NCBI GenBank assembly: GCA_021158465.1
Contig: JAGGUN010000036.1
Span: 1 to 48,942 of the forward strand
DNA length: 48,942 bases
Source: a bacterium
GTDB lineage: Bacteria > UBP14 > UBA6098 > 4484-93
Reading direction: 5' to 3'
Each line of letters begins with the position of its first letter. The first letter of the stretch is position 1. This document shows positions 1 through 36,879 of the stretch, in pieces. The notes beneath the pieces are model-generated. The model was given only the letters and a program-made list of their open reading frames with translations. It was not told the DNA's origin and did no database searches. The position numbers were made by a program, and so were the translations under genes.

Positions 1-216
1 GGTTTACAAATAAAACCTATAACCTATGAACAAACTCCAGAGATATACAGATGGAAGGAATGGCTTGGCAGGACACATAAGAAATTTGAGGAAAATTTCG
101 GTGGAAAAGTGTTTATTGTATTTTCAACCCAAAGGGACAATAAAAAGGAAATCTATAACCTGGAAGTAGTTGAACAAATAAAGGAGGAAATAGAAAGGCT
201 TGAAGGAGGCAAGTAA
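1..216 (+). CDS. 3' end of an unidentified protein (5' truncated by window edge)
   Basis: Frame 1 is open from the first base to a TAA at 214-216, giving the last 71 residues of a protein. I do not recognise it. The visible part is charged and rich in Lys and Glu, with one short hydrophobic strand (FIVF, about residue 41) and a Glu/Lys-rich helical end (VEQIKEEIERLEGG). Codon choice favours AAA, ATA and GAA, and the stretch is clearly more AT-rich than the genes that follow, so it may have a different origin. Its last codons contain the AAGGAGG that serves as ribosome-binding site for the next gene, so the two genes abut. The reading frame is well supported; the function is unknown. Confidence 0.6.
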   Translation, partial: GLQIKPITYEQTPEIYRWKEWLGRTHKKFEENFGGKVFIVFSTQRDNKKEIYNLEVVEQIKEEIERLEGGK

Positions 217-9230: not shown

Positions 9231-12200
9231 ATGAAAAAAGGCTTGAGCTTTTTTACAATACTTTTTGTCCTTTCCGTATCGGCGGGGGTTTTTGCCTCCG
9301 ATGGGCTTCTTGTAAAGTCCTGGTCAATAGTAGGTGGTGGGTATGCCAGGACGATGGTTCCCGACGACCATGGTTTTGAGCTTGTAGTCGGCTGTCGAAC
9401 TGACACCGGTGCTGTGGACATCGCCTTTGTGATAGACACGACCGGCAGTATGTATGACGATATTGCCGATGTTCGAGACAACCTTTACGATTTCACGGAT
9501 GAGCTTGACGCTGCTGGATACGACTATCAACTTGGCATGTGCACATTTGGCGACGGTGTGAACGCATCGCATGGTGGCTGGGGTTTCACATCGAACCCTG
9601 TTACATTCCACTCCTGGATAGCTGCGCTCTCATCCGGTGGGGGTGCCGACTGGGAGGAGACATCTCTCGACGCCATCGCCGACGCAATAAGGAACTTCCC
9701 CTGGCGAGCGGGTGCATTGCACATTGTCATTATGGTAACCGATGCACCTTACTGCGTCACAAATTATTCTCCCAATCCCGGCGGATGTTGCTGCGAGACA
9801 AACACAGATGAGACTGACTCGGGGGTGTATTCTCTCGTTCTTTCAACAGGCACTGTGCTGTTCATCGTTAGTCCGTCCTCGTCCGGCTCGCCATCCATTC
9901 CTGCTTACTGCTATAACTGGTATCACGATACAGCCCACGATTCTGGTGGGAATTGGTATCTGCTCGGGACCTCCTTCTCCGTTATATTCTCCGATATCGC
10001 TGATATGATAAGCGAATTTCAAGTAATAAACATCGAGATAGAGAATGTTTCCGGTGTGACGCTTTCTCCCGTCTATGCTCAGCTTCTTCCTCGTTCTTGC
10101 GTAACGATAACCTACGGTTCCAACCCGCAGGTGTGGCCGAGTGCTCCTCCTGGTGGGATAATGGATTTCAGCTGGCGGGTCAATGTCTCCTGCTCCGGCA
10201 GCGAGGACTGCTTCCAGATCGTCGTATGGAGCGGTTCTTACGCCGACACAATAATGGGATGTATGCATCTCGGCGAGGATTGCGAATGCTATGGACCTGT
10301 GGCAACGGTTTCTGAGCCTATCCCCTGTGGGGTAATCTCTGCCTGCGACTATCAGTCTCTCGGATACCAGCTGACCGATGATGATTCACCTATTAACGCA
10401 TCGACAATCTCGCTCGAGGTCGATGGTCATACATACATATATCCGGAGAATATGACATTTTCAGCCAGTGGATTGACAGGGACGGTTACATATACGCCTG
10501 CTGTTGCCTGGACGCATGGGCAGGTGGTTCACTTCAATATATGGACTGCTGAGGATGGCAACGGTTGTCCTCTGCAAAACCACCCGGAGTGCAGCTTCAC
10601 AATCGACCTTCTGCCGCCCGATATGAGCGACTTCTCCATTCCCTGCGGCTCGATTATCACCGACTCATTCCTGACGATAAGCGTTGACCTACAGGACTAC
10701 CCTGCTGGAATCGACATAGATAATCTATATTTTGTGATAAACGGTGATAACTATCCGCTCCGCTCGGGCTTTGTAACCTATGTTGGCGATGAGCATACAG
10801 GAACGGTAACATTCTCACGGAGGCTCGAGGATATGGGTATCGAGCCTGAGGACACGATACTTGTTTGTCTTCACAGGCAGGATCTGGTATCGCCGGAATT
10901 CTGCGGTCCGAACGAGGCTGATTCCTGCTGTGAGTATTATGTCAATGTGGGACCGACAGCGTATATCGTCCATCCGATGCCCGATTCCATCACCGCCTGC
11001 GACCCGGAGCAGATTATCATCCATATCTACGATGCTCACGGGATTGACCCGACATCCATCCAGCTACTCGTCGACACGACAATCTATACAATGGAAACGA
11101 GTCGCTGGCTGCAGCTGATCGATGACACACTTATCGTATTCTCTCCACCTGCCGGGTTCTATCACACCTGGGATACAGTTCATGTTGAGCTTATCTCTGC
11201 CAACGACAGCTGGGGTGCTCCGCTTCAGGATACACTCATCTGGGATTTCTATGTCGACTATGCACCGCCTGTGTTCTACAATATGACACCGCCCGAGTCG
11301 ACAATCATCTTCCTCCCGACAACGGACATCTATATAAATGTGTTCGATTCCATCGCTGGGGTTGACTCCTCCAGCCTCGTTATGACAGTAAACGGTGAGG
11401 AGGTTGAGCCGGAAATTATACTCGACAGGGACGGCAGCTGGCGTCTTCACTATCTACCGACCGACCCGCTATGCCCTCCTGACAGCGGTGGATGCACAGT
11501 CGAGGTATGCGTTTATGCTGGAGACCTGCCCGACTACTGCGGTCCGAACGATACCACATTCTGCTGGACATTCGACATTATACTTTCAGGTCCTGTTCCA
11601 GAGATTGTTACCCCTCAGCCCGAGTCGACTACTGCCTGCCTTGACCAACCTATCATTATGTATCTGCATCCGACGGTTCAGCCTGTCGACCCGAACTCAA
11701 TCCATATTACAATCGATGGAATCGGATATACTGTGGATAGCACATATCTGACATTTACAGATGATTCTGTCCTTACCTTCCAGCCACCTGCCGGTTTCTG
11801 GGACGATTTCGACACCGTTCTTGTATCTCTGGACTCTCTCAGGGATATTGTCGGGACACCTGCCGATTCGCTCCCTGTTGAGTGGGTGTTCTACACGGAT
11901 TTCTCTCCACCCATTTATTTAGACGAGTTCCCTCCCGATGGGGCAACTGTTGCATCCGCCACACCGACTATTGCTGTAACCATATTCGACTCGATAACGG
12001 GACTCGATACCACAAGCTTTGTCGTTGTGATAAACGATACACTTGAATTTGTTATAGGTGATACGGGCGTATACTGGGATTCAGGCAGGATTGAGATCTC
12101 CTCGAGGACAGCAGGGTTTGAGTTTTCAGACAGCGAGTATGTCGAGGTGTGCATTCGCCATGCCTGGGACAGACCCGACTACTGCGAGCCGAACAGCTCC

Positions 12201-15200
12201 GATTTCTGCTGGGATTTCTTTGTCTCACTATCTGGACCCGACCCTGAGATTATCTCCTATCTGCCATACACCTATGTCGCCTGCGACGAGGACAGCCAGT
12301 ATATCGAGATGACAATCATAGACCCCGATACCGTTGACCCTGCATCCGTCGTTATATCCGTCGAGGGTGAGAGATACACGCTCGACTATCCCGGGCTGAC
12401 ATACGAGAACGATACCCTCGTCTTCCGTCCACCGGAGGCTTGGGAGAACAACCAGATTGTTGATGTCTGCCTGCTCGAGGCTGTGGACCTGCTCGGCAAT
12501 CCTATGCCCGATACACTCTGCTGGTCGTTTATTATGGACCTCGAGCCACCTGTTCCGACAGGCGAGACACCTGCAGATGTTATCCTGAACGATTCGCTCG
12601 CCGCATTCTCCATTCTACTTTACGATACTCTGAGCGGAATAGACGATTCGAGCATCGTTGTGTATATCGATTCTATCCCCTACACGCTTGACTCTGCTGG
12701 TATCCACTGGGATGGTGAGACGCTTTCGTTCTCGCCCGAGGAGGCAGGGATATTCTGGTCCGACTGGGACACAGTGAACATCTGCATTTCTGTCGAGGAC
12801 CTGCCGGACTACTGCGGTCCGAACGACACGACATACTGCTGGCGGTTCTTTGTCCATCTCCGCGGTCCTGTTGCGGAGATTGTAACCCCTATGCCCGGGC
12901 AGATTGCAGCATGCGACAGTCAGGAGATTGTGATACATATAACCGACGACGATACGCTCATCGACCCGACGACCATTCTTCTCGTTGTCGAGGGTGATAC
13001 ATTCAGCGTCGACGGGAGGATACTCGTCTTCGATGGGGAGAACCTTACCTTTTACCCGCTCGAGGCAGGAACCCCGTGGTATAACGAGCAGGAAGTGAAC
13101 ATAGAGCTTATCTCTGCCGATGATATGCTCGGAAATCATTTGCAGACACCTCTCTCCTGGAGTTTTCTTGTCGACCTCGAGCCACCTATTGTTATCGATG
13201 TTGACCCGACGGTAGGTGATACGGTTTCCACAATAGCACCCGTTGTTCGCTTCCATCTGACCGATAACCTCTCGGGCGTGGATATATTCAGCTTGCACAT
13301 CTTGGCGGATACGATTATGCTTTCTCCGACTATCAGTTCTCCTGATGAGGAGATACTGGTTGACCCGGTGGAGCTTGGCATCGTTCTACACGGAGGCGAT
13401 TCGCTTATTGTCTGTGTTTCCGTGGATGATTCACCTGACATCTGCCTGCCAGCGAACCATCTTGACACCTGCTGGACGATATATATCGAGCCGGGCGGAC
13501 CGGTGGCTGAGATTATCCGCCCGTTCGATGGGGCATATTCTGCTTGCCAGGATACGGAGCACATCGAGATGACGATTACCGATGAAAACGGTGTGAACCC
13601 ATCGACGATACTGTTCCAGATTGTGCGAACCGACTTCCCCGACGATACACTCATCCTCACAGTTGATTCCGCTGGCGTCTCATACGACGGGACGAATTTC
13701 TTCTACTACCCCGAGCTTCCTTTCTCCGATGGTGAGGAGGTATTCCCCTGTCTGCTTGGAGCATCCGATATGCTCGGCAACCCGATGGATTCCGTTCCGA
13801 TATGCTGGCATTTCATTATGGATCTGTCTCCGCCTGTTGTTCACTCTGTTTCGCCAACGCCGGGTGATACGGTGGCGACAAGGCTTCCCGTTATCTCGTT
13901 CTATCTGAACGACTACATAACAGCGGTCGACTTGGGCGAGTTCTACCTCACGATAAACGGTGTCGAGTATATGGTTGGCGATTCCGGGCTCGTCTATTCG
14001 GGTGATACGGTATTCAGCTGGTATCCCGAGTCTCTGGGGATTATCTTCTCCGGCGGGGATTCTATCGTTGTTTGCCTGCATGCACAGGATAATCCCGACT
14101 ACTGCGACCCGAATATGCTCGACACCTGCTGGACGATATACATCGAGCCGGGTGGACCTATTGCCGAGATCCTCCGCCCGTTCGATGGTGCACATTCATC
14201 CTGCGAGGATGAGCATATTGTAATCTCACTGACCGATTCAAACGGTGTCAACGATTCGACAATAATCCTTGTTGTCAACGGCGATAGCATCGACATATTT
14301 GACCCGAGGTTGACCTATTCGGAGGATACTCTGATATTCATCCCTGCCCCATATTTTGGTGATACTGAGACGGTCTATGTTGAGCTTATAGCTGCCGATG
14401 ACATCCTTGCAAATCCGCTCGAGACACCGCTTTCCTGGATGTTTATAATGGACAGAATCCCACCTGCAATAGAGGTTATCTCTCCAGCCGACGGCGAGGT
14501 CGTTCCATCGACACATCCAACGATAAGAGCAACTATCGATGAGGAAATCTCCTGGCTCAACTACGATTCACTCACTATTACGGTGAACGGCATAACATAC
14601 ACCCTCGGTTCGGCAGGGGTGACATTTACAGGTGATACACTCATCTTCAGTTCGCTCGATGCAGGGGTATCATTCACTGGCGGAGATACCGTCGATGTTT
14701 GCATAACCGCCTACGATTCGCTTGATTACTGTGACCCGAACGATTCGACTCTCTGTTGGGAATTCTATATCTCGCCGGGTGGTCCTGTCGGGCATCTTGT
14801 CCGTCCGATACCCGATGTTTATTCCGCCTGCGTCGATGAGCATATCGAGATGACGATAACCGACGAGGATTCAGTCGTTGATGAGACGATAAGGCTACTC
14901 GTTGCGAGATATGGCTGCACAGACACGGTCATCTATGATATTTCCGACCCACAGCTCGACTTCAGCTATCCGAACCTGATATTTACCCCTGACCCGCCTT
15001 TTGCCGATGCCGAGACTATCTGCGTCACCCTTATAGAGGCTGATGATACTCTCGGCAACCACCTCACAGCGCCTGTTTCAACGGTATTCTATATCGACCT
15101 GACACCACCCGTAATAACATCCCAGACACCTTATCCTGGAATATATGTCGATGATATAACGCCTGAGATATGTGTCGGTATAGCGGATTATCTGTCCGGG

Positions 15201-17009
15201 CTCGACCCTGCGACTATCTTTATAACAATCGATGGAACAGGATACAGCGTAACCGATGAGCCTGTCAGTTTCGATGGTGAACTGCTCTGCTTCGACCCGA
15301 CCACCGCTGGACTCGAGTGGCACGGTGGAGACACTGTTTCTGTCTGCGTTCACGCCGAGGACTCACCATACTACTGCGACCCGAATGTCCTGGACTCCTG
15401 CTGGCAGTTCTATATCTCACCTGGCGGTCCTATCGGGATAATCGTTCGACCACAGCCGGATATATTCTCTGCCTGCATCGATGAGCATATTATTATGACC
15501 ATAACCGATACCAACGGTGTCGACGAATCGACTATCAGGCTCGTTGTCGAGGGGGTCGAATACTCTGTTGATGATGTTATCACAACATTCCGCAACGATA
15601 CGCTCTATCATACACCACCGACACTGCCTACCTTTGCTGATGCCGAGACTGTTGATGTCTGTCTGACAAGGGCGGATGATATGCTCGGCAACCCGCTCTC
15701 CGGTGCGCCTATCTGCTGGAGCTTTGTTATGGACCTATCTGCCCCTTATGTCTCAGGTGTTTATCCTGCTATCGGCAACTATGTCGCCACTCGCCAGCCA
15801 GAGATACATTTCGGCTTGTTCGATGATATAACCGGTGTCTCCGACACATCGATTATCGTCACGGTCGACGGTATCGAATATCGGACAGACGACCCTGCAC
15901 TCAGCTTCTCGAACGATACTATCTACTTCGACCCGGTTATTGCAGGGAGAATCTGGTCAGGAGGTGATTCGATCGTTGTCTGCGTTCATGCACATGACCG
16001 ACCGACACCGGGCTACTGCGACCCGAACGAGCTTGATACCTGCTGGGTCTTCTACATATCACCGGGTGGACCTGTGGCAGAGATCGTCCGACCGTTCGAT
16101 GGAGCCTTTTCCGCCTGTGAGGATGAGCATATCGTTATGACCATCCGCGATGCTGACGGTGTCGATGTTCCGACGATTCGGCTTGTCGTCGAGGGGATAG
16201 AATACTCTGTCGATGGTGTGCAGACGATATATCAGAACGACACGCTTTACTTCTTCCCTGAGCCACCTTTCGCAAACGGACAGGTGGTTGATGTCTGCCT
16301 GACGAGGGCGGATGATATGCTCGGCAATCCACTGACCTGTGCACCTGTCTGCTGGAGCTTCACGATGGACCTTACCCCGCCTTTTATCCAGCTTCGTGAG
16401 CCAGAAAACGGGATTATGACACGCAGCACAACGCAGAGAATACATCTCTTCATTCAGGATACAATATCCGGGCTTAATGTATCAGGGATTGAACTCGAGC
16501 TGAACGGTGAGGAGTACGATTTCGGCGACCTTTCACCCATTCCAAATGCCGATTCCAGCGGGTTTGTGCTTACATTCGAGCCTGCCTCATTCGGAGTTGA
16601 GTTCGGCTTTGGTGATACCATCCGCTTCACACTATCAGGGTTCGACACGCCCGATTACTGTGCCCCGAACGACACATCGTCTTCCTGGTGGTTCTGGGTC
16701 GAGCCACAGGTCTCCTGCCTCGTTTTCCCGAACCCGTTCACACCGAACGGTGATGGCTACAACGAGATGGCTGTATTCAACTATCCGTTTATGTTCTCCG
16801 AGGAGGCACACATCTCAGTTTATACCGTTCGGAATCTGCTTGTCTGGGAGAAGGATGTCCCGCCATTGACCGATTTTGGGGATTATCTCTCACGAGCCTG
16901 GAACGGGTGCGACTTATCCGGCAAGCCGCTCCCGGAAGGGCTGTATATCTATGTCGTTCAGGTGAACGATGAGGTCGTCTGCAACGGAACGGTCGTCATA
17001 GCAAGATAG
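9231..17009 (+). CDS. Giant secreted vWA protein with ten tandem double-Ig repeats and a C-terminal sorting domain
   Basis: 2592 residues. A Sec signal peptide (1 to about 23, ending GVFA) is followed by a von Willebrand factor A domain (about 60-275) with MIDAS DTTGS (Asp69-Ser73), a candidate Thr in WEETS and VTDAP (Asp171). A linker reaches residue 354. Ten units of 209-219 residues start at residues 355, 574, 787, 1002, 1212, 1423, 1642, 1851, 2066 and 2280. Each has two Ig-like halves: one starting 'GPvaEIv.P...SAC.dEhI', the other 'd..PPvv....P..G..v', and closing with a Cys motif like PDYCdPN..DTCW. The end (about 2495-2592) has PNPFTPNGDGYNE and resembles the CHU_C/type B T9SS sorting domain. 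Expected to be exported and cell-surface attached, perhaps as an adhesin. The single long frame shows no frameshift. Confidence 0.85.
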   Translation: MKKGLSFFTILFVLSVSAGVFASDGLLVKSWSIVGGGYARTMVPDDHGFELVVGCRTDTGAVDIAFVIDTTGSMYDDIADVRDNLYDFTDELDAAGYDYQLGMCTFGDGVNASHGGWGFTSNPVTFHSWIAALSSGGGADWEETSLDAIADAIRNFPWRAGALHIVIMVTDAPYCVTNYSPNPGGCCCETNTDETDSGVYSLVLSTGTVLFIVSPSSSGSPSIPAYCYNWYHDTAHDSGGNWYLLGTSFSVIFSDIADMISEFQVINIEIENVSGVTLSPVYAQLLPRSCVTITYGSNPQVWPSAPPGGIMDFSWRVNVSCSGSEDCFQIVVWSGSYADTIMGCMHLGEDCECYGPVATVSEPIPCGVISACDYQSLGYQLTDDDSPINASTISLEVDGHTYIYPENMTFSASGLTGTVTYTPAVAWTHGQVVHFNIWTAEDGNGCPLQNHPECSFTIDLLPPDMSDFSIPCGSIITDSFLTISVDLQDYPAGIDIDNLYFVINGDNYPLRSGFVTYVGDEHTGTVTFSRRLEDMGIEPEDTILVCLHRQDLVSPEFCGPNEADSCCEYYVNVGPTAYIVHPMPDSITACDPEQIIIHIYDAHGIDPTSIQLLVDTTIYTMETSRWLQLIDDTLIVFSPPAGFYHTWDTVHVELISANDSWGAPLQDTLIWDFYVDYAPPVFYNMTPPESTIIFLPTTDIYINVFDSIAGVDSSSLVMTVNGEEVEPEIILDRDGSWRLHYLPTDPLCPPDSGGCTVEVCVYAGDLPDYCGPNDTTFCWTFDIILSGPVPEIVTPQPESTTACLDQPIIMYLHPTVQPVDPNSIHITIDGIGYTVDSTYLTFTDDSVLTFQPPAGFWDDFDTVLVSLDSLRDIVGTPADSLPVEWVFYTDFSPPIYLDEFPPDGATVASATPTIAVTIFDSITGLDTTSFVVVINDTLEFVIGDTGVYWDSGRIEISSRTAGFEFSDSEYVEVCIRHAWDRPDYCEPNSSDFCWDFFVSLSGPDPEIISYLPYTYVACDEDSQYIEMTIIDPDTVDPASVVISVEGERYTLDYPGLTYENDTLVFRPPEAWENNQIVDVCLLEAVDLLGNPMPDTLCWSFIMDLEPPVPTGETPADVILNDSLAAFSILLYDTLSGIDDSSIVVYIDSIPYTLDSAGIHWDGETLSFSPEEAGIFWSDWDTVNICISVEDLPDYCGPNDTTYCWRFFVHLRGPVAEIVTPMPGQIAACDSQEIVIHITDDDTLIDPTTILLVVEGDTFSVDGRILVFDGENLTFYPLEAGTPWYNEQEVNIELISADDMLGNHLQTPLSWSFLVDLEPPIVIDVDPTVGDTVSTIAPVVRFHLTDNLSGVDIFSLHILADTIMLSPTISSPDEEILVDPVELGIVLHGGDSLIVCVSVDDSPDICLPANHLDTCWTIYIEPGGPVAEIIRPFDGAYSACQDTEHIEMTITDENGVNPSTILFQIVRTDFPDDTLILTVDSAGVSYDGTNFFYYPELPFSDGEEVFPCLLGASDMLGNPMDSVPICWHFIMDLSPPVVHSVSPTPGDTVATRLPVISFYLNDYITAVDLGEFYLTINGVEYMVGDSGLVYSGDTVFSWYPESLGIIFSGGDSIVVCLHAQDNPDYCDPNMLDTCWTIYIEPGGPIAEILRPFDGAHSSCEDEHIVISLTDSNGVNDSTIILVVNGDSIDIFDPRLTYSEDTLIFIPAPYFGDTETVYVELIAADDILANPLETPLSWMFIMDRIPPAIEVISPADGEVVPSTHPTIRATIDEEISWLNYDSLTITVNGITYTLGSAGVTFTGDTLIFSSLDAGVSFTGGDTVDVCITAYDSLDYCDPNDSTLCWEFYISPGGPVGHLVRPIPDVYSACVDEHIEMTITDEDSVVDETIRLLVARYGCTDTVIYDISDPQLDFSYPNLIFTPDPPFADAETICVTLIEADDTLGNHLTAPVSTVFYIDLTPPVITSQTPYPGIYVDDITPEICVGIADYLSGLDPATIFITIDGTGYSVTDEPVSFDGELLCFDPTTAGLEWHGGDTVSVCVHAEDSPYYCDPNVLDSCWQFYISPGGPIGIIVRPQPDIFSACIDEHIIMTITDTNGVDESTIRLVVEGVEYSVDDVITTFRNDTLYHTPPTLPTFADAETVDVCLTRADDMLGNPLSGAPICWSFVMDLSAPYVSGVYPAIGNYVATRQPEIHFGLFDDITGVSDTSIIVTVDGIEYRTDDPALSFSNDTIYFDPVIAGRIWSGGDSIVVCVHAHDRPTPGYCDPNELDTCWVFYISPGGPVAEIVRPFDGAFSACEDEHIVMTIRDADGVDVPTIRLVVEGIEYSVDGVQTIYQNDTLYFFPEPPFANGQVVDVCLTRADDMLGNPLTCAPVCWSFTMDLTPPFIQLREPENGIMTRSTTQRIHLFIQDTISGLNVSGIELELNGEEYDFGDLSPIPNADSSGFVLTFEPASFGVEFGFGDTIRFTLSGFDTPDYCAPNDTSSSWWFWVEPQVSCLVFPNPFTPNGDGYNEMAVFNYPFMFSEEAHISVYTVRNLLVWEKDVPPLTDFGDYLSRAWNGCDLSGKPLPEGLYIYVVQVNDEVVCNGTVVIAR
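10293..16700 (+). repeat. Ten tandem ~640-bp coding repeats (double-Ig units) in the giant vWA gene
   Basis: Unit starts, set at the conserved Gly-Pro of 'GPxxEI', are 10293, 10950, 11589, 12234, 12864, 13497, 14154, 14781, 15426 and 16068; the last unit ends near 16700. Lengths are 627-657 bp. Some units are close at DNA level: units 9 and 10 share a 23-nt identical run at 15669-15691 and 16305-16327, and units 6, 7 and 10 share 'GAGCCGGG' or similar plus CCGTTCGATGG at their starts. Early units are more diverged. This fits stepwise unit duplication with later exchange. Confidence 0.85.
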
Positions 17010-18047: not shown

Positions 18048-19835
18048 AAGCAGTCTCTTGGCGACTGAGAGTGGAATCCCAGATTTCTTCGATATCGCCT
18101 CGGGTGAACTCTCCTTTATCTCATCGAGTGAGGAAAACTCTGCTAAGAGCCTATTTGCACGTAGCTTCCCTATGCCGGGGACATCTGTCAGAATACTCGA
18201 AAAGCTTCCCCTTTTCCGCAGCTTCCTATGGTAAGTTATCGCAAATCTGTGAGCCTCATCCCTTATTCTTTGCAGGAGCTTAAGTGATGGTGAGCTTTTA
18301 GGGATGTTCTGTGGATCCGGGATACCCGGCAGGTACACCTCCTCCAGCCTCTTGGCAAGCGATACAATAGGGAGCTTCTCTTCCAATCCAAGGTTCTTCA
18401 GCGCTTCATAGGCAGCGGTTAACTGCCCCTTGCCACCATCGATTAAGACGAGGTCGGGCAGAGGTTTTCCCTCATCGAGCAATCTTTTGTATCTTCGATA
18501 CACCACCTCGTTCATCTTGGCGAAATCATCCTGAACATCGGGCGTCTCTTTTATCCTGAAATGCCGATAATTGCTCTTCAACGGTCGCCCGTTCTTGAAC
18601 TGCACCATAGAGCCGACCGATGCCTTCTCTCCTATGTTTGATATATCGAACCCCTCGATGACGACAGGAATACGAGGTAGATGCAGCTCCTTCTGGAGTG
18701 AGAGCAAAACACCTGAAATCTTTGACCTCTCCCTTTCGATTATGTACTGGTTGAGGAGATACTCCGCGTTCTTTGTCGCCATATCGAGCAGCTTTTTGTG
18801 AAATCCTCTCTCCGGGGTGATAATCTTTACGGACCGCCCGAGGTTCTTCGATATGCTTTTCTCGAATACTTCTTTCTCTTCGATGTTGCATCCGATATAG
18901 ACAAGGTGTGGCGGGTCATCACCTTCTGAATAATACTGTTCCAAGAACGATGACAAGACCTCCCTACCCTCCGTATTCGGTGGGAAATTCAAAAGGAAAC
19001 TTTCCCTACCAACTGCGTTACCTTCACGGATGAGGAATACCGTCACATATGCCTTATCACCGATGTAGAACAGCCCGACATAATCCCTATCGTCGAAATC
19101 TTCAATTTCGAGCTTCTGGGATTCTGTCGCCTTCTCGATTGCCCGTATCTCATCTCGTATGGCTGCGGCAGTTTCAAAATCGAGCCTATCCGATGCCTCC
19201 TTCATCTGCCTCCAAAGGGAGTTCAATATATCCTTTCTTCTTCCTCGTAGGAATCTGACAGCCTGCTTCACCTGCTGGTTGTATTCTTCCTCGCTTATCT
19301 TCCCTACGCAAGGAGCAGAACACAGTCCGATGTCATACTCAACGCATGGACGGGCAAGACGCCTCTTCCGAAGATTAAGTTTGCAGCTTCTTATCTGGAA
19401 CAACTGGCGGACAAGCTTTATCATTCTGCGCATACTTTTTGCGCTGGTATATGCCCCAAAATACAGCGAGCCGTCCTGTTTCCTCCTCCGTGCGACCTCG
19501 ATCCTCGGGAACGGTTCACCTGTTATGTGGATGTAGGGGTAATGCTTGTCATCCGTCAAGCGGACATTATACCGAGGTCTATGTTTCCTAATGAGGTTTG
19601 CCTCGAGTATGAGAGCCTCTGCCTCTGAGTCGGTCAGGATATAGTCGAAATCGGCTATCCGAGCGATAAGTGCCTCGGTCTTCGGGGAACGCTCACCAGT
19701 CTGGAAATAGGACGATACCCTTGCTCTCAGCGAACGAGCCTTCCCGATGTATATTATCCTCCCCTTCGCATCCTTCATAAGGTAAACGCCGGGGAGGTCA
19801 GGCAACAGTCCGACCTTCTCCTTCAACCTGTTCAT
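17469..19835 (-). CDS. uvrC: Excinuclease ABC subunit C read in frame into an NlpC/P60 lipoprotein
   Basis: 788 residues from ATG 19835 (TGATG junction with the upstream gene; GTG 19838 would add one residue). Residues 1 to about 600 are a complete UvrC, which makes both incisions in nucleotide excision repair: GIY-YIG domain (GVY 16-18, YIG 29-31), Cys-rich segment, UVR motif (LDFETAAAIRDEI), RNase H-like endonuclease half (EGFDISNIGE, DLVLIDGGKGQL) and HhH (DVPGIGKLRANRLL). UvrC normally stops about there. Instead the frame continues without a stop into a lipoprotein signal (LAVGGC, Cys617), a Lys/Arg-rich linker and an NlpC/P60 peptidase with Cys696. A cytoplasmic nuclease joined to an exported hydrolase is odd, so internal initiation or a lost stop is likely. 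UvrC identity is firm; the true product boundary is not. Confidence 0.88.
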   Translation of the reverse strand: MNRLKEKVGLLPDLPGVYLMKDAKGRIIYIGKARSLRARVSSYFQTGERSPKTEALIARIADFDYILTDSEAEALILEANLIRKHRPRYNVRLTDDKHYPYIHITGEPFPRIEVARRRKQDGSLYFGAYTSAKSMRRMIKLVRQLFQIRSCKLNLRKRRLARPCVEYDIGLCSAPCVGKISEEEYNQQVKQAVRFLRGRRKDILNSLWRQMKEASDRLDFETAAAIRDEIRAIEKATESQKLEIEDFDDRDYVGLFYIGDKAYVTVFLIREGNAVGRESFLLNFPPNTEGREVLSSFLEQYYSEGDDPPHLVYIGCNIEEKEVFEKSISKNLGRSVKIITPERGFHKKLLDMATKNAEYLLNQYIIERERSKISGVLLSLQKELHLPRIPVVIEGFDISNIGEKASVGSMVQFKNGRPLKSNYRHFRIKETPDVQDDFAKMNEVVYRRYKRLLDEGKPLPDLVLIDGGKGQLTAAYEALKNLGLEEKLPIVSLAKRLEEVYLPGIPDPQNIPKSSPSLKLLQRIRDEAHRFAITYHRKLRKRGSFSSILTDVPGIGKLRANRLLAEFSSLDEIKESSPEAISKKSGIPLSVAKRLLLHLKGSLGTMLAVFLLAVGGCAPFVSYPRYRPIRAIRIEPEEKYHSPDEEIVKRAERKKTTRPPQKERIDIRKQRLIGEINPLLGTPYKWGGTTPSGFDCSGFVRYVYKRTYGITLPRTSKEMFKCGRFVSSYELATGDLVFFQSRFRGVDHVGIYIDNSQFVHASTHGVRKDTLELPYYKRRFVGGRRVIR

Positions 19836-22800
19836 CACTTAAGAAGTATGCACCGTCTTATCTCTATCCAGTCTCTGGTCTTTACCTTGACAAGATACAG
19901 TCCTGTCGGGTACCCACTGCCATCCCAGGTATAGCGAGAGACCCCGTTCGAAACAGAGCCTACTGGAAGAACCGCAACCTTCTCACCAAGTAGGTTTGAT
20001 ATCTCAACTGCTGCATCCTCCGAGCCGACAAGGATATTTACCGTCTCATTGAACGGGTTCGGGAAGATCCGCACTTTTCCAACCTCTTCCGGAACGGATC
20101 CACGCTCATACTCTCCAGGCGGCGCTGGTGGCACTGCATCAACGAACGCAGCTATCGGCTTGAGCAGCCCACCACTTCCGGGGACAGATATTGTGGTATC
20201 ACCAGTGGCAAGCACCCAGTATCCTTTCCCTGACTCGAGGGCGACCGCTCTGTAGTATGCCCTTGCCAGCGGGTCATACCCCCAGACAGGAAGCGCGAAG
20301 AAATCGGTTGGGCTGTCGGACAACGGGGCACCAAGGATATTCCAGCCAGCAGAAACTACCCTCTGAAACTCCGATACCTTCATCCCAGCAATAAGAACGG
20401 TAGTATCCACCTCCGACAGGAGCCAGTAACCCTTCCCTGCTGTAATATAATCTGCTATATCATATCTCCTCGCGACAGGGTCATACTCATAGATGGTTCC
20501 AACATCGGCGAACAGCTCATCTCTAACGGGCAGAACAGGAAAGGAGATAAGGTTCCAACCTGGGGAAAGATGCAGATGAAATACCGCAAGTGATGGTCTG
20601 TCCCAGACAATCGTAAGTGTGTCCTCGCTGAACTCCCAACTGGTTGTGTGAAGCATATCGACAGTATTGTTTATGCGGAACTCTCCTGGAGGCAGAACAG
20701 ACGGGTTCCAGGAAACGGTATACCTCTCCTGGTCCTCGACCGTGAGCCTCCATTCGACCGGGAACGGACCGTTTGCCCTTATATCCCGGTGGAGTCGGGG
20801 ATAGTGCAGGTCAGAGACCGTCAGGTAGCCATCGGTAACAGATGGTATAGGCGGCAGGTATATGATGTCAACCCCTGGGTCAAACCCCGCTGTTGCTATG
20901 GGCGATGCACCGATGGTAACAACCTCCTCCGTCCTGTCTGGGACAGTCCCATCAACTGTTATATCGAGCATCCAGGAGACATCCTGCCAGTTGATGACCA
21001 GGGCTCCGTTGCCAGGAATAGCCACAGGAACACCGGAATTGAACCGCGCATCCAGGAATACAAGCGGGAAGAAATCGCCTTCACCAGCCGCCTGCGAGAC
21101 AGCAACAACTATCCAGACAAGCACACCATCACCTGCCAGCGGAATATCTCCAGACGATTCGATATGCAGGGCACCCGATAGGCTATCTACCCCCCAGGAC
21201 AGCTCCGTCCAGAGGCAGATGGTCGAATCGAGCACAACATCGATTACATCGAGTATATCTAAAGGAAGCCCGATGTCGAATCCCCAGGAAACTATATTCC
21301 CTTCATCTGTCTCATCACACAGAACGGGTATAGATACCGTATCACCCGCCGATGCGAATATCTCCGGCAGCCAAACGGGGAGCTCCATATAGAAGTGGGT
21401 AAACGAGAAGCAGGTATCAAGCAGGTTCGGAGGACACAGGTCTGGGGTATCCTGCGCTCGTACGCAGACAACGACAGTATCCCCAGGAGCGATGGGGGTC
21501 TCAAACGGACAGGATATATCTACACCAGAACCGGTCATGCTCATCTCAAACGAGAGAGGCTCTCCATCGACGCTGACCGTTATGGATGCTGTGTCAACAC
21601 CGGAGATGGAATCGTAAAGGTGGAACGACACGGTTGGCAGCGGGTCATCGATGACAGTATCAGGCGGCGGGAACAGACCTGTTATCACGGGTGGTGTGAG
21701 GTCTACATAGAACTGCCAGCAGACAGGTAGCTCGAGCATTCCACCGCAGGAATCAACGGCAGACACAAGACAGACAGAGACCGTATCACCATTCTCAAAG
21801 CTGTCGGGAGCAACAGGAACAAAGCTCAAGAAACCACCGTCAGTGAGTGTAACTTCTGTATCGGAGGCGGAGTAGAATATCCCGTTGACGGTAAGCTGGA
21901 TAGAATCAGGGACGATACCACAGGTCGCCTGGTACCAGACATAGACCATAAAATCGACCCCCGCAACGACAGAATGCAAATCGCACCCGTGGATTTCAAG
22001 CGTATCCTCACCGCTATGGAGCAGTTCTGTTATATCTATATGGTCCATTGTCCTCCAGTCGCCGGATGTCGAGCCTGCGAGCGTCCCGTTTACGGATATA
22101 TCCCCCTGGTCATCGATGTATGTCTCTATATAAGCCGAATCCACCGTTGCTCCCTCAGGTATATTCACAAACGCCCTGAAGTCGACACATTCATAAGGGG
22201 AGAAATGGTCATCCCACACCCACTCGGTTCCAGGGATTATCCTCGAGCCCCATCGGCTCGGGTCAGGAGCATAGGTTGGAACCCATTCGGAGCCGTTCCA
22301 GTATTCCACTGTCGATGTGGAGCTACCGAGCGTATAGAGAGCTGATATAGGATAACTCATTAATCTCATCATTATCGGCTGGTCTGAACAGGCAGTTATC
22401 TGTTCTGGCTGAGGGGTAATAATCTCCGCCTCAAGCGGGCTTCTCCTTATTCCACGACCACGGACAACGACATACATAATCGGGTAGCAGGGCGTGTTAG
22501 AATAGATCTGGAGTGTATCGCAGAAATCACCTGTATCGGGAGGGGTAAAGCGAACATCATATTCGACCCGCGAGCCTGCAAGTATGTATCCTGCCCGTGG
22601 ATAGACATGAAAGATATCGATGTCGGTATTTAGTATGTAAGTTATCCTGAGCGTATCCTCACCTGTGTTTTCCATACCAAGCGGAAGGTGTGCAGTATCG
22701 CCAACCAGCACCTCTCCGAAGTCGAGCTCGCCCGTATCGATAACAAGGTTTGGTATGAGGGAATCTCCGTTCCAGCCTGGCTCGACGACAAGGAAGAGCG

Positions 22801-23941
22801 GTGGCGGATTGCCATCGAAGCCGTCGGATGGCTCCTCCCAGACATCGTAGGCAAACATCGTGTCGCAGACAACAGCCATTCTTATCCTGGAAGCTATCCC
22901 TGCCCGGGAGTCGTATGTCTTCAGCCTAACGGAATCTGGGAACTCATCATATGTGACGAAGTTCGCCGAGGCATAGTCACGTGTGCAGCATCCGTAGATA
23001 TGCATCCTCAAAGCACCGTCGAGATACCCCCAGGCTTCTGTGGCGGTGTTGGAACCACCTGTCATCCTGATGGCGCTTCTCACAGGATTAAGGTAGCCTA
23101 TACGAAATCCTCTCTGCTGCGTTCCTGTGCAAACGCCCATCGAATCGGTGCAAAGGATACACCATCGGCGATTCGCCTCAAATATGGTTCGGGCAGATGG
23201 TCCCTCGATAACAGGTCTCCCAGAATACCAGCAACTGCCCGCAAATGTTCCATCTCCGTGCCTGTGGATAGCCGCAGAGTAAAGCATAATAACCCTCTGA
23301 CCAAGATTGTTCTTCAGACCGAAGTTGAGCATATTGAACCCGTAGAGATATGCAGCAGAATACACCCCTGGCGGGTCATGGCAGAGCCTATCACGAAGGA
23401 TCGGTAGCTCACCGGAGATGATGTAGCCGTCATCTGTAATGCGCTCATATTCATAGTGCAGAAAAACCGCCAGAAGGTTCTGGCTGTAGTCGAGACGAAT
23501 ATATTCACCCGTCATAACATCCGTCTCCTCGAGCGGTCTCTCCCAGGTTGCAACAGGACCGAGACTGCCCTTGACGAGCATAACAAGCGCCTTCGAGGTG
23601 TCAGGGTCGTATACGCCGATATACATCCTCCCAAGCGTATCTATTGCAAGCTTGAACCTCAGCGAATCCGAGAAGCCATCCCAGGTATGCCCAGGGTGGC
23701 AGGTGTAGTCGAACCAGCAGGAGTCCGCACGGAAATAGTCGATGCTCCGCATCCAGACAGCGTAATCGCCTATACGCTCGGCAGAGTAGTCCGGGTCAGA
23801 GATAATCCCTTCAAGGTCCACCTCGGCACACAGGCTCACCCGCTCGACAAGATACATATCAGAGGTTATCTCGTCTATCGTCTGCGAGAAAAGAGGCACG
23901 GAGATAAGCAAAAGCAAAAAAGCCCCAAAAAGCCTCTTCAT
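19835..23941 (-). CDS. Large secreted multidomain protein with ASH, double-Ig, cohesin-like and T9SS-type tail
   Basis: 1368 residues; GGAGG precedes ATG 23941. Signal peptide about 1-19 (ends LFSQ). Residues about 20-400 are an unassigned, probably beta-rich region. An ASPM-SPD-2-Hydin-like domain follows at about 405-495 (LDFGEVLVGDTAHL, YDVRFTPPDTGDFCDTL). One double-Ig unit homologous to the repeats of the giant vWA protein spans about 503-850, interrupted at 530-673 by a jelly-roll-like insert. Next is a cohesin-like domain (about 860-1000), then two 'GWNLISFP...GKGYW' repeats (about 1130-1260). The C-terminal ~80 residues (RIFPNPFNETV, YPTGLYLVKV) resemble the type A T9SS sorting domain. 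Probably a surface-exposed or released protein. A weak promoter (GGGACA N18 TATTAT) lies in the 66-nt gap upstream. The stop overlaps the uvrC start. Confidence 0.8.
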   Translation of the reverse strand: MKRLFGAFLLLLISVPLFSQTIDEITSDMYLVERVSLCAEVDLEGIISDPDYSAERIGDYAVWMRSIDYFRADSCWFDYTCHPGHTWDGFSDSLRFKLAIDTLGRMYIGVYDPDTSKALVMLVKGSLGPVATWERPLEETDVMTGEYIRLDYSQNLLAVFLHYEYERITDDGYIISGELPILRDRLCHDPPGVYSAAYLYGFNMLNFGLKNNLGQRVIMLYSAAIHRHGDGTFAGSCWYSGRPVIEGPSARTIFEANRRWCILCTDSMGVCTGTQQRGFRIGYLNPVRSAIRMTGGSNTATEAWGYLDGALRMHIYGCCTRDYASANFVTYDEFPDSVRLKTYDSRAGIASRIRMAVVCDTMFAYDVWEEPSDGFDGNPPPLFLVVEPGWNGDSLIPNLVIDTGELDFGEVLVGDTAHLPLGMENTGEDTLRITYILNTDIDIFHVYPRAGYILAGSRVEYDVRFTPPDTGDFCDTLQIYSNTPCYPIMYVVVRGRGIRRSPLEAEIITPQPEQITACSDQPIMMRLMSYPISALYTLGSSTSTVEYWNGSEWVPTYAPDPSRWGSRIIPGTEWVWDDHFSPYECVDFRAFVNIPEGATVDSAYIETYIDDQGDISVNGTLAGSTSGDWRTMDHIDITELLHSGEDTLEIHGCDLHSVVAGVDFMVYVWYQATCGIVPDSIQLTVNGIFYSASDTEVTLTDGGFLSFVPVAPDSFENGDTVSVCLVSAVDSCGGMLELPVCWQFYVDLTPPVITGLFPPPDTVIDDPLPTVSFHLYDSISGVDTASITVSVDGEPLSFEMSMTGSGVDISCPFETPIAPGDTVVVCVRAQDTPDLCPPNLLDTCFSFTHFYMELPVWLPEIFASAGDTVSIPVLCDETDEGNIVSWGFDIGLPLDILDVIDVVLDSTICLWTELSWGVDSLSGALHIESSGDIPLAGDGVLVWIVVAVSQAAGEGDFFPLVFLDARFNSGVPVAIPGNGALVINWQDVSWMLDITVDGTVPDRTEEVVTIGASPIATAGFDPGVDIIYLPPIPSVTDGYLTVSDLHYPRLHRDIRANGPFPVEWRLTVEDQERYTVSWNPSVLPPGEFRINNTVDMLHTTSWEFSEDTLTIVWDRPSLAVFHLHLSPGWNLISFPVLPVRDELFADVGTIYEYDPVARRYDIADYITAGKGYWLLSEVDTTVLIAGMKVSEFQRVVSAGWNILGAPLSDSPTDFFALPVWGYDPLARAYYRAVALESGKGYWVLATGDTTISVPGSGGLLKPIAAFVDAVPPAPPGEYERGSVPEEVGKVRIFPNPFNETVNILVGSEDAAVEISNLLGEKVAVLPVGSVSNGVSRYTWDGSGYPTGLYLVKVKTRDWIEIRRCILLK

Positions 23942-29478: not shown

Positions 29479-30476
29479 GAAGATTCATACTCCTAACGGT
29501 CTTCCTTCTTACACTGGCGGCAAGAGCGGACGCTGTGCTTCAGATTTACAATCCGCTTTACCGCGAGAGGATAGAAGAGGGGCTTTCTCTCATCTATTCG
29601 GACAGGTTCGATGAGGCGAAGGACTATTTTGCGGAGGTCATCGAGGATGATGTCACCGACCCGACAGGATACTTCTTCTCTGCCCTCTCGGACTATCTAA
29701 GGATGTGTGACCTCGAGGAGCCAGCTCTCATCGATTCCGTTCGTGAGGGGTTTGAACGGGTAATCGACCTCGCCGAATTCTCAGCAGATAGAGGAGAAAT
29801 CGAGTGGGGGAATTATATAGTCGGGACGAGCCATTTCATTCTCTCGATGGCGGAGTCGCAATACGGCTCAAAATCGAAGAGCATCTCGGAGGGAAGAGCA
29901 GGGTTCCTTGCCTGCAAGACGGCACTCGACCTATCGCCGGAGAACAATGACCTGAAACTTGCCGTCGGGAGCTACTACTTCTGGTCGGGGAGGAAACTCT
30001 CCTGGCTGCCTATCGTCATCGACAAAAGCGAACTCGGGCTTTCATACCTTATCGATGTGGCGACGAAGAGCCGATACACAAGGCTTCTCGGATATCAGGT
30101 GCTCGTCTATGCCCTTCAGGAGTCGGGGGAGAAGGACAAGGCTCTATCTTATGCCAGAAGATTTTCCGAGGAGTTCCCGCGGTCTCGTGCCGCACTCTGG
30201 ACACTTGCCAAGGCTCTCCTCGATGCGGGAAAGACAGATGAGGCAATATCCATTTTCGATACACTCCTTGCCCACTACCGGAAATCCCCTGGAAACTGGT
30301 TCAATGTCACCCAGATAAGATACTTCCGACTGAAGATATTCCTCTTGAAAGGGGATAAGCCTTCTGCCTGTTATGAGGCAAAGAAGATTCTTTCTCTTCC
30401 GCTCTCCGATGCTGTGAGAGAGCGTCTTGAGAAGGAACTCAAAGAAGTAGAAGCTGTTATCAAGGAATGCAATTAA
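29475..30476 (+). CDS. Secreted tetratricopeptide-repeat protein
   Basis: 333 residues from ATG 29475, which overlaps the yjbQ stop (ATGA). A signal peptide (about 1-20, ends ARADA) follows at once; upstream codons in the frame are the out-of-frame 3' end of yjbQ. The mature part is helical, with TPR-like pairs at about 27-60 (EGLSLIYSDRFDEAKDYFAEV), 150-180 (ACKTALDLSPENNDLKLAVG), 210-240 and 245-290 (ALLDAGKTDEAISIFDTLL). Likely a periplasmic scaffold. As last gene of the transglutaminase/ABC operon it may assist that system. Its stop overlaps the stop of the convergent gene by 4 nt. Confidence 0.75.
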   Translation: MRRFILLTVFLLTLAARADAVLQIYNPLYRERIEEGLSLIYSDRFDEAKDYFAEVIEDDVTDPTGYFFSALSDYLRMCDLEEPALIDSVREGFERVIDLAEFSADRGEIEWGNYIVGTSHFILSMAESQYGSKSKSISEGRAGFLACKTALDLSPENNDLKLAVGSYYFWSGRKLSWLPIVIDKSELGLSYLIDVATKSRYTRLLGYQVLVYALQESGEKDKALSYARRFSEEFPRSRAALWTLAKALLDAGKTDEAISIFDTLLAHYRKSPGNWFNVTQIRYFRLKIFLLKGDKPSACYEAKKILSLPLSDAVRERLEKELKEVEAVIKECN

Positions 30477-32716
30477 GGTACCGTTCGGCAGCCGCTCTCG
30501 TTGAACAGGGAATCGAGTGTCACGACAACGCTGTCACCGTCTGCTCCGGGGAAACTCACAATTCCAAGCGTGTCCCCGACAAAATGCAGATATGGGCTCA
30601 CCGGGGCAATAGAAAAGCTCGAATCGGCTCCCGTTTCCCTGTTTATCACATGAACGGTGAAATAGACCCGCATAGTGTCAATATTTGCTCCCGTCGTGTC
30701 CCGAAAGAAAAACCTCACCTCCTGAGATACACAGGATGAGAACTCATTGGAGGATGTCGGGCAGTCGAGCCTCGTGATAAACTCCGTGCAGTATCTTATC
30801 TGAAATGTGCAGGTATCACGGGTTATGTTACAGAAGGAATCCCTTACCACCACGACAAGAGTACAGAGCCTGTTCTCATATGGGGCTGTCCAGTTAAAGA
30901 ATGTGTCGCCCACCTCGTAACCCTCCCCACAGATATAGAGAGAACAGGGAGCATCCCCGAGGAACATATCTGTTATCCCCCATTCGAGGTGCACCATCTC
31001 CCCACCCGATACCGTATCGGGGCAAAAGAAGGATATATCCGGTGCACGGGTGTCGACAGGGAAGCTGTCACTCGATGCGGAGTCCTCACCGACGGCTACT
31101 ACCTTCAGCATAAATGAAGCACTCTCAACACCTGGCAGGTCATCACTCACCAGCCAACCGAAGCAGTGAATTCCGGGAAGGATGTTTGCTCCTATGTGCC
31201 CTGCTGGAGCAATCAGCGTCGACGGAATAATACCCCAGCTCACGCCAGCATCATCGCTTGCCTCGATATAGACAATATCAGCCGTGTCGCCCGATAGAGC
31301 ATAGCATATTGTCACAATGTTCGAGTCGTTGCAGTCCGTCTCGACATCCACCCAGACGGAATCTATCACCACCGGCTGCCTGATGGTGAAGCTATAGCAG
31401 GAATCGGAGATGTTAGGTCCGCAGGTATCTGGGCAGATGTCCACCGAATGGATGCAGACATTTATCTCTCCTGTTCCCCAGCTTCCGCCGAATTCATCGG
31501 GGTCAACGGTTAGATAATCGGAGGCATACGAGCATCCAAGCGATTCCGGCGTGAAATACCTACCGTTTACCGTTACGGAAATCTCGAGCGAATCACAGAA
31601 ATCGTCATAGACCATCGCTACAATGGGAATGGTGCTATCATCGACAGCAGCCCCCGGCGCAGGAACAACTGCCTCGATATGCGGGGAGGAGTAATCCTCA
31701 TAGAAAAAGATGCATACCGACGAGTCGAGCGTGTGTCCCAGCCCACTCGATGCTGAATCGAGGCAAACGGTAACCGTCTCGACCTCATCCCAGGCAGGAG
31801 ACGGTGTAAATGTCAGGACAGAATCTATGTATGTCAACCTCGGGTCCGTAATATCGATTGTATCACCGTTGACAGAGACCCTGAAGGATAGGGTATCGAC
31901 ACCATATAGGTCCCGCCTCCCAAGCCAGTCAAACAGGTTTCTCGCAAACTGCAGATGGTCCGGGTCATCAATTCCCTCGAGTATAAGCGGGTAAGGGTAG
32001 GGACCGTTGATGAAGGCAAGCTCATCAAAGTAACAGGCGACCCTACCGCTGCCATAATTCCGCACCGCAAGCCCGCAATATGTTGTAAAAAGATATGAGT
32101 AATCCCCTATGCAGGAAGCAGGCGAGGAGGTCGAGATTTCTGTTACTCCGTTCCCTGTTATATCCGATACCCCAGCGGTCACAGGATGAGAAGAGAGGCT
32201 GAGGGTGAACGCAAAGTCGATAGCTCCTATCAGCGATATCCCGTATGCGCTTAATATCGCATTATACCTTGTCCTGTCTGTTCCATATTCCGTTATAACA
32301 AAAAGTCCACCACCATCCGAGACAAAACCCTCCAAAGCTGTCCGCTCAGCCGCTGTCAGGTCACGAGGAAGATTGAAGCCCAGAACAATTATGTCATATT
32401 CCCCACAGAGGGAATCGGTTATCGTGTCGCTCGATACGGTCGTATAATCGGATGAAAACCCACGCCCTGAAAGCGTATCCTTGAGCGTCGAATAACCGTA
32501 GACACCCGTCGAGAGTATCGGCACATCTATCCAGAGTATCTTCTGCGTGCTGTCGGAAAAATATACCTGGAAGCGAACAGGAAGCTCCGGACAGGCAGAG
32601 ACAACAGAATCGTCAGGCGAGAGCCTCTCTGCAACAAGCGCCCCGGAAGGTGCAGCATCAACACGGAAAGATGCCCCAAAAAGCATAAACCCAAGTAGAA
32701 CAATTCGCCATCTCAC
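30473..32716 (-). CDS. Secreted protein with double-Ig module carrying a DUF4350/GATase-like insert
   Basis: 747 residues, GTG start with GAGGGGG 6 nt upstream. Signal peptide about 1-21 (ends VDA). Residues about 28-480 match one double-Ig unit of the giant vWA protein ('VVSACPELPVRFQV', 'TFTPSPAWDEVETVTVCL', 'CPDTCGPNISDSCYSF'), but the first Ig half is split at about 55-271 by a Rossmann-like domain resembling DUF4350/glutamine-amidotransferase-like folds ('YDIIVLGFNLPRDLT', 'LEGFVSDGGGLFVITEYG'). No catalytic Cys is evident in the insert. The C-terminal third has further Ig-like, Cys-rich segments. It ends abruptly (NESGCRTVP) with no sorting tail. Probably periplasmic or secreted by another route. 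No clear promoter was seen upstream. Confidence 0.75.
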   Translation of the reverse strand: MRWRIVLLGFMLFGASFRVDAAPSGALVAERLSPDDSVVSACPELPVRFQVYFSDSTQKILWIDVPILSTGVYGYSTLKDTLSGRGFSSDYTTVSSDTITDSLCGEYDIIVLGFNLPRDLTAAERTALEGFVSDGGGLFVITEYGTDRTRYNAILSAYGISLIGAIDFAFTLSLSSHPVTAGVSDITGNGVTEISTSSPASCIGDYSYLFTTYCGLAVRNYGSGRVACYFDELAFINGPYPYPLILEGIDDPDHLQFARNLFDWLGRRDLYGVDTLSFRVSVNGDTIDITDPRLTYIDSVLTFTPSPAWDEVETVTVCLDSASSGLGHTLDSSVCIFFYEDYSSPHIEAVVPAPGAAVDDSTIPIVAMVYDDFCDSLEISVTVNGRYFTPESLGCSYASDYLTVDPDEFGGSWGTGEINVCIHSVDICPDTCGPNISDSCYSFTIRQPVVIDSVWVDVETDCNDSNIVTICYALSGDTADIVYIEASDDAGVSWGIIPSTLIAPAGHIGANILPGIHCFGWLVSDDLPGVESASFMLKVVAVGEDSASSDSFPVDTRAPDISFFCPDTVSGGEMVHLEWGITDMFLGDAPCSLYICGEGYEVGDTFFNWTAPYENRLCTLVVVVRDSFCNITRDTCTFQIRYCTEFITRLDCPTSSNEFSSCVSQEVRFFFRDTTGANIDTMRVYFTVHVINRETGADSSFSIAPVSPYLHFVGDTLGIVSFPGADGDSVVVTLDSLFNESGCRTVP

Positions 32717-36144: not shown

Positions 36145-36879
36145 ATGAAGCAGGTTATAATATCGTTCGGTATCTTGCTTGTAATGATATTCCCTCTTTT
36201 TGCACAGGGGGTTGCGCACTCGGTCATCACTCCCGTTATCTTTCCCGGTAATGGTGCCCCTCCTGAAGGGACAGTTACCTTCTGGAGCTTCTTGAAAGAC
36301 TCGTCAAGTTCCTGGGCGGTATCGGATACGATAATCGATGGGGACACGATACCTCCCAATATGTATAAAATCTACTATGACCCGCCAACCATACCGGACA
36401 CATTCGCCGTTGTATGGGTCGAGTGCACTTCATTCCACCGTTTCTCCTGGGACCCGGGTGATTCCTTCTTCGTTTATGTGGTAACCACAGCTTCCCCAGG
36501 GGATACATTCTTTACCTCCTGCATACTGAATACGGCTAATCCGCAGGTTCTCGATACGCTCGAGCTCGATGTAAATGAGGCAAGAACATATCCGGGAATG
36601 TTCTATCTCACCTCCAACTATCCGAACCCGTTTAATCCAGCTACTTCTATCTCCTTCGGTATAGGAGGGAATACTCCTGTCTCCGTGAGGCTCGATATTT
36701 ACAATCTGCTCGGCGATAAGATAAAGACGGTTATGGATGAGGAGCTTCCACCGGGCTCATACGAGGTTACCTGGGATGGTATGGATAAATATGGAAATCC
36801 TGTGGCAAGTGGTGTCTATTTCTATCGTCTGAAGGCGGGGGGAAATCTGCTCTCACGCAAGATGCTCCTTCTGAGATAA
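36145..36879 (+). CDS. Small secreted protein with T9SS type A/FlgD-like sorting tail
   Basis: 244 residues; AAGGAGGAG precedes the ATG. Signal peptide about 1-21 (ends PLFAQ). Residues about 25-130 form an Ig-like beta domain ('PEGTVTFWSFLKDSSSSW', 'PDTFAVVWVEC'). The C-terminal ~85 residues are a textbook FCB-type tail: YPNPFNPATSISF (about 160-172), 'VRLDIYNLLGDKI', 'GSYEVTWDGMDKYGNPVASG' and VYFYRLKAG. This directs export and surface attachment in T9SS-bearing bacteria. It is 18 nt after the repeat protein and probably cotranscribed. Its stop codon directly abuts the stop of the convergent gene. Confidence 0.8.
   Translation: MKQVIISFGILLVMIFPLFAQGVAHSVITPVIFPGNGAPPEGTVTFWSFLKDSSSSWAVSDTIIDGDTIPPNMYKIYYDPPTIPDTFAVVWVECTSFHRFSWDPGDSFFVYVVTTASPGDTFFTSCILNTANPQVLDTLELDVNEARTYPGMFYLTSNYPNPFNPATSISFGIGGNTPVSVRLDIYNLLGDKIKTVMDEELPPGSYEVTWDGMDKYGNPVASGVYFYRLKAGGNLLSRKMLLLR

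Follow-up and report, generated by a model that had tools for sequence, protein, structure and literature searches.

The locus considered here raises a simple question: what might a bacterium of the uncultured UBP14 lineage (GTDB UBP14; UBA6098; 4484-93) do with a giant protein composed for the most part of one repeated unit? The ORF in question occupies 9231-17009 on the + strand of the window, by which we mean the whole 48,942-nucleotide stretch analysed (contig JAGGUN010000036.1, assembly GCA_021158465.1), and from an ATG start it encodes 2592 amino acids. The genome to which it belongs amounts to 2.04 Mb in 54 contigs and is 97.6% complete. A Sec signal peptide (residues 1-22, 9231..9296, +; MKKGLSFFTILFVLSVSAGVFA) is recognizable by eye from MKK, a hydrophobic core and VFA/SD, just as the preliminary description had read it from the sequence. 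The following segment (residues 23-60, 9297..9410, +) contains, according to the alignment, a conserved strand up to the invariant Cys55 (strand 49-55 in the model) and leads to a vWA domain.

The repeated part is formed by ten contiguous units covering residues 355-2493, each 209-219 residues long. As delimited by the unit alignment and profile, and all on the + strand, these are unit 1 (residues 355-573, 219 aa, 10293..10949), unit 2 (574-786, 213 aa, 10950..11588), unit 3 (787-1001, 215 aa, 11589..12233), unit 4 (1002-1211, 210 aa, 12234..12863), unit 5 (1212-1422, 211 aa, 12864..13496), unit 6 (1423-1641, 219 aa, 13497..14153), unit 7 (1642-1850, 209 aa, 14154..14780), unit 8 (1851-2065, 215 aa, 14781..15425), unit 9 (2066-2279, 214 aa, 15426..16067) and unit 10 (2280-2493, 214 aa, 16068..16709). 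The count, lengths and adjacency given in the preliminary description stand, although its word "gapless" applies to adjacency only, small indels being present between aligned units. All ten units agree at eleven positions (G1, P2, C18, D88, F102, D105, P109, D197, C204, P206 and N207 in the numbering of unit 1), and the unit profile reaches an E-value of 1e-70 in other genera, far above chance.

Units 8 and 9 were modelled together with AF2 from an alignment of 27 rows. The model has a mean pLDDT of 94.2. Each unit comprises about 16 strands, arranged in two sandwiches of seven to eight, while the pTM of 0.63 means that the relative orientation of the domains is not fixed by the model. With the unit model, Foldseek retrieved from the PDB titin, neurofascin, Robo, cadherins, the MpAFP adhesin, S-layer proteins and the neck of GhpA. 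Together with the model, these matches, among them tandem Ig proteins and Ig-like adhesins of bacteria, support the earlier suggestion of two Ig folds per unit, so that the stalk as a whole is predicted to contain twenty Ig-like domains. It had also been suggested that the unit corresponds to no named family, and this is borne out by the searches: no Pfam family matches it one to one, and the unit profile has no match at a meaningful E-value among PDB sequences. Big_5 (PF13205) gains 51.8 bits over the whole protein, and matches only two of the ten units when these are taken singly (best E-value 2.8e-5). A literature search found no published work on the unit family; in the Zodletone spring paper, UBP14 is mentioned for sulfur metabolism only.

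Each unit was further said to be framed by the Cys of SAC and the Cys motif PDYCxPN..D.CW. The SAC and YC.PN cysteines are indeed present in all ten units, but the Cys of the CW motif, together with a Cys in strand F, occurs in nine, both being absent from unit 10, which accordingly is without this F-G pair. The partners of these cysteines were sought through co-occurrence in 256 distinct units, with twelve Cys columns and 2000 shuffles within proteins. The twelve columns resolved into six mutually best pairs with phi of 0.89-0.99, the next best partner never exceeding 0.34; 358 of the 1522 unit cysteines fall outside these pairs. Five pairs would lie within one domain: 183-201 (both present in 196 units), 77-94 (66 units), 113-202 (30), 187-197 (24) and 125-164 (15), with phi of 0.90-0.99 and none of the 2000 shuffles equalling the observed value. 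The sixth, 17-193, would connect the first Ig to the second; both cysteines are present in 251 of the 256 units and neither in 4, and since so few losses do not allow a decisive test (172 of 2000 shuffles reach the observed value), the pairing relies on these co-losses and on the elimination of other columns. The predicted strands put column 17 in the loop between A and B of the first Ig, and column 193 in the F-G loop of the second. In the Ig topology, two such loops meet where the two domains of one unit join. We thus infer that C17-C193 is an inter-domain staple in nearly every unit. Overall, the exclusive co-occurrence of Cys pairs speaks for the disulfide bracing envisaged earlier, with the bonds themselves being putative. 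It counts against such bonds that, although the genome encodes surface proteins rich in paired cysteines, neither VKOR nor Thioredoxin_4 (DsbA-like), the only two models tried, had a match in it at 97.6% completeness.

How stable is such an array? Three other genera contain four orthologues (L031/L051, L032/L050, L033/L052 and L034/L064) that are colinear with our protein at 41-45% identity, and all four of them have the vWA domain, exactly ten units and the tail. A given unit is on average 47% identical to the unit of the same rank in an orthologue and 29.5% identical to the other units, and in 160 of 180 comparisons, with the closest orthologue pair left out, the best match was found in register. 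Paralogue C24 is also largely in register over units 3-10. Such a pattern indicates that the array predates the split of these families and has not been reshuffled since. It fits the idea that the number and order of units are held by selection, either as a spacer of set length or because individual positions have their own functions. The units of one protein share about 30% identity, and here another explanation may apply in place of a length ruler. For tandem Ig proteins, it is argued in PMC4660218 that low identity between neighbours serves to avoid misfolding; by analogy, the same may hold for our units.

The protein is one member of a large family that, judging by profile searches, is restricted to the UBP14 class. 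The unit was found in all 17 genomes of the class and in none of 273 others at E<=1e-15, and relatives of our protein occupy 13-40 places in each genome of the class; outside these relatives, a scan of named genomes matched the vWA part alone. The genome under study encodes about 25 further unit-bearing ORFs with one to 19 copies each. The copy-richest of them, a paralogue of 4375 residues (L017, C54), carries 19 double-Ig units with a mutual identity of about 22-41%. In the window itself, 30473-32716 (-) encodes a secreted-type protein of 747 residues with 0.4% Lys, 3.5% Cys and one unit-like match; it has no sorting tail and no Pfam match, and a similar protein is found at L022. Lys depletion is extreme in the family: the product of 9231-17009 contains 5 lysines in 2592 residues, in comparison with about 4-8% in cytosolic neighbours, and the unit proteins with type B-like tails (this one and paralogues L011-L021) and the orthologues have 0.2-1%. 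Despite this, Arg still makes up about 2% of our protein. As to the cause, one may guess at resistance to proteases or at a surface that is strongly acidic.

It could be supposed from these figures that unit proteins are packed into an S-layer-like or fibrous envelope, where vWA would serve lateral assembly and not adhesion. About 25 acidic, nearly Lys-free paralogues per genome, the absence of a match to the vWA part in most of them, and the S-layer proteins SbsC, SbsB, HPI and that of N. maritimus among the Foldseek matches would all suit such a coat. However, the sequences are diverse (about 30% identity between units), the heads vary among paralogues, no lattice-forming motif is seen, and a type B tail of the T9SS is typical of surface adhesins. 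We regard this structural role as unlikely.

The head of the protein is better described as a vWA domain that might bind a ligand. It spans residues 61-265 (9411..10025, +) and belongs to the vWA family (VWA_4/VWA) both by profile and by its MIDAS residues. In a scan of the whole protein, VWA_4 reached 36.4 bits over residues 64-158 (cut-off 27); with the N-terminal part alone, VWA_4 reached 39.6 against 27 and VWA 24.6 against 23.8. The metal-site residues, namely DxTGS (D69, T71, S73), D140/E143 and D171, are unchanged across 15 relatives, so the intact MIDAS reported at first sight is confirmed. An acidic pair after DTTGSMY, which we had likened to the integrin ADMIDAS, was dropped, as the alignment shows that it is not kept in orthologues. 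Residues 266-354 (10026..10292, +) form an Ig-like domain of seven strands in the AF2 model.

Several observations bring integrin beta subunits (betaI plus hybrid) to mind, namely the vWA profile, the metal-site residues and the rank in the fold search. The AF2 model of the head, which starts at residue 35 and has a pLDDT of 81.6, places integrin beta chains at the top of the Foldseek ranking with about 360 columns aligned, a stretch that includes the Ig-like domain after vWA. The vWA sequence profile has its best PDB match in integrin beta (E 2e-8) with the D.TGS, D.PE and TD metal-site residues aligned, and the Pfam model Integrin_beta gives 26.3 against 24.8 for the N-terminal part scanned and 21.2 in the whole protein. 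It is tempting to imagine an integrin-beta-like headpiece, with a betaI-like vWA inserted in a hybrid-like Ig domain, whose swing would pass force down the twenty Ig domains, a leg stiffened by disulfides, as far as a barrel anchored at the wall, as a bacterial counterpart of the mechanosensitive integrin leg. However, when a profile of ordinary Bacteroidota vWA domains was searched as a control, its best PDB match was likewise integrin beta (E 4e-7), which makes the affinity a general one of this vWA class; the Pfam scan of the protein found no PSI or EGF domains; and the sole pointer to a hybrid-like Ig domain flanking vWA is the fold-search alignment. A special kinship with integrin beta was consequently reduced to a lead, and we consider the headpiece scenario quite unlikely.

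The remaining question is how the protein would reach the surface and stay there. Its C-terminus (residues 2494-2592 and stop, 16710..17009, +) carries the tail PNPFTPNGDG...NGTVVIAR, which had been called type B-like, and this name can be kept. Scanned alone, the tail reaches 34.0 bits with CHU_C (cut-off 27; 26.6 in the whole protein) and 29.8 bits with TIGR04131, below the curated cut-off of 35. Among the tails of paralogues, 13 of 14 match CHU_C and 13 of 14 match TIGR04131 at E<=0.01, and each genome of the class has 15-51 similar tails. T9SS genes are present in the genome, where SprA (669.5 bits summed), PorU (608.6) and PorV (208) all exceed their curated cut-offs and PorU adjoins PorV. 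Directly beside PorU lies a PorV-like protein of 806 residues (L150:4503-6920, C17). Beta-propeller repeats (Reg_prop, with a weak match to PorZ) interrupt it some ~60 residues from its start, and it may combine PorV and PorZ in a single chain. The window also contains two T9SS-like tails of other kinds (FlgD_ig / Por_Secre_tail, ending in LLLR / LLK) at 36145-36879 (+) and 19835-23941 (-), from which it follows that two tail classes coexist in the genome.

Type B proteins are known to be gathered and held by PorP/SprF-like barrels whose genes often follow immediately downstream; in P. gingivalis, it is PorE that ties PorP to the wall (PMC9143113, PMC12618676). In the UBP14 class, we found proteins of 930-1030 residues in which a PorP/SprF barrel is joined to OmpA-like domains and, in most cases, to CARDB, with 4-8 matches per genome in 17 of 17 class genomes and none in 273 others at E<=1e-40. 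Judging by its domains, such a fusion resembles a single-chain version of PorP plus PorE. Genes with type B-like tails lie at most 150 bp upstream of these fusions, on the same strand, at no fewer than nine places in seven genomes (G000:C40, C41, C9; G001:C8; G008:C22; G010:C145; G012:C201; G014:C86; G016:C69; positions compared by eye), and no other independent observation supports the type B reading as strongly as this arrangement in several genomes. Four fusions of 931-969 residues (L138:1837-4671, L139:153-3059, L140:189-3095 and L141:1886-4678, on C9, C40, C41 and C9 of the genome under study, respectively) adjoin unit-family genes; all have the barrel and OmpA-like peptidoglycan-binding domains, and three of the four have CARDB. 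The gene at 9231-17009 is itself an orphan, with no PorP-like gene beside it and no conserved neighbourhood found; in F. johnsoniae, 3 of 12 type B genes are orphans too (PMC12618676). In total, a T9SS route is well supported by these sequence data, and actual export and attachment would follow from it.

A barrel of the SprF kind also allows a mobile variant, i.e., a SprB-like gliding adhesin moved along the cell by the T9SS motor. In F. johnsoniae, no PorE-like gene accompanies those of the mobile type B proteins (PMC9143113, PMC12618676), and our ORF likewise has no PorE-like neighbour. Nevertheless, the fusion of PorP-like proteins of the class to OmpA domains predicts static wall anchoring, no gliding gene was shown, and the GldM motor model had no match in the genome, though it had none in the control either; we therefore find gliding improbable. 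Release into the medium or a biofilm matrix after cleavage of the tail has as little to recommend it, for although a PorU sortase is encoded and some T9SS cargo does go to the medium, the tail is of the type B-like class whose proteins stay on PorP-like barrels, and the paralogues pair with such barrels.

Overall, we might conclude that the protein is probably a giant surface adhesin exported by the T9SS, with a vWA domain at the tip of a disulfide-stiffened stalk of twenty Ig domains and a type B-like tail that holds it. After Sec export, it would cross the outer membrane through the T9SS by means of its C-terminal domain, and the tail end would remain attached, most likely by a PorP/SprF-like barrel whose gene lies at another place in the genome. 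The ten units would form the stalk, in each of which the C17-C193 disulfide would join the first Ig to the second, while another would lock the F-G hairpin of the second Ig in most units. From Cys co-occurrence and predicted strands, each unit may then behave as a stiff rod, with bend points between units. Going by the number of domains, vWA would be presented at the free end, at a distance of about 70-80 nm from the cell, and would bind its ligand via a divalent metal, as its conserved metal-site residues suggest. Of the long fibre with a metal-dependent adhesion domain at its tip that had been proposed, the vWA domain is confirmed and the stalk is well predicted, while metal binding and adhesion are putative.

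If so, an uncultured lineage has used one expandable module, two Ig domains in a Cys frame, to make up much of its surface. Orthologues keep the same count of units in the same order, unlike ordinary repeat adhesins, which lengthen and shorten, and this makes it possible to test whether selection acts on the length of the stalk. The fusion of PorP/SprF with OmpA domains next to paralogues, one chain in place of the two of Porphyromonas (PorP and PorE), is evidence from independent genomes in favour of type B cargo being anchored to the wall, as proposed here.

Finally, we would like to place the protein among known systems. The repeats of MpAFP are nearly identical to one another and Ca-bound, the protein is secreted by the type I route, and we know of no inter-domain Cys frame in adhesins of the MpAFP or GhpA type; a tandem Ig-like stalk is what our protein shares with MpAFP repeats and the GhpA neck of Aureispira (structural matches 4p99, 6xi3 and 9flp). 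With Big_5 and other bacterial Ig-like domains, each half unit shares its Ig-like sandwich, but Big_5 has neither the Cys frame that is conserved in the UBP14 unit nor its fixed period of two domains. The closest parallels are SprB and other proteins with type B CTDs (F. johnsoniae; PG1035/PorP/PorE of Porphyromonas gingivalis), also giant repetitive surface proteins, with which it has in common a type B-like tail, T9SS genes and a PorP/SprF-like barrel beside paralogues (PMC9143113, PMC12618676). It differs from them in its lineage-specific Cys-framed double-Ig unit, its vWA head and its phylum, as well as in a TIGR04131 score below the cut-off, the lack of an adjacent barrel and the fusion of the PorP barrel of the class to OmpA domains. 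Giant type B surface proteins of the T9SS are thus a known class, and what is new is the Cys-framed double-Ig unit, which is undescribed.
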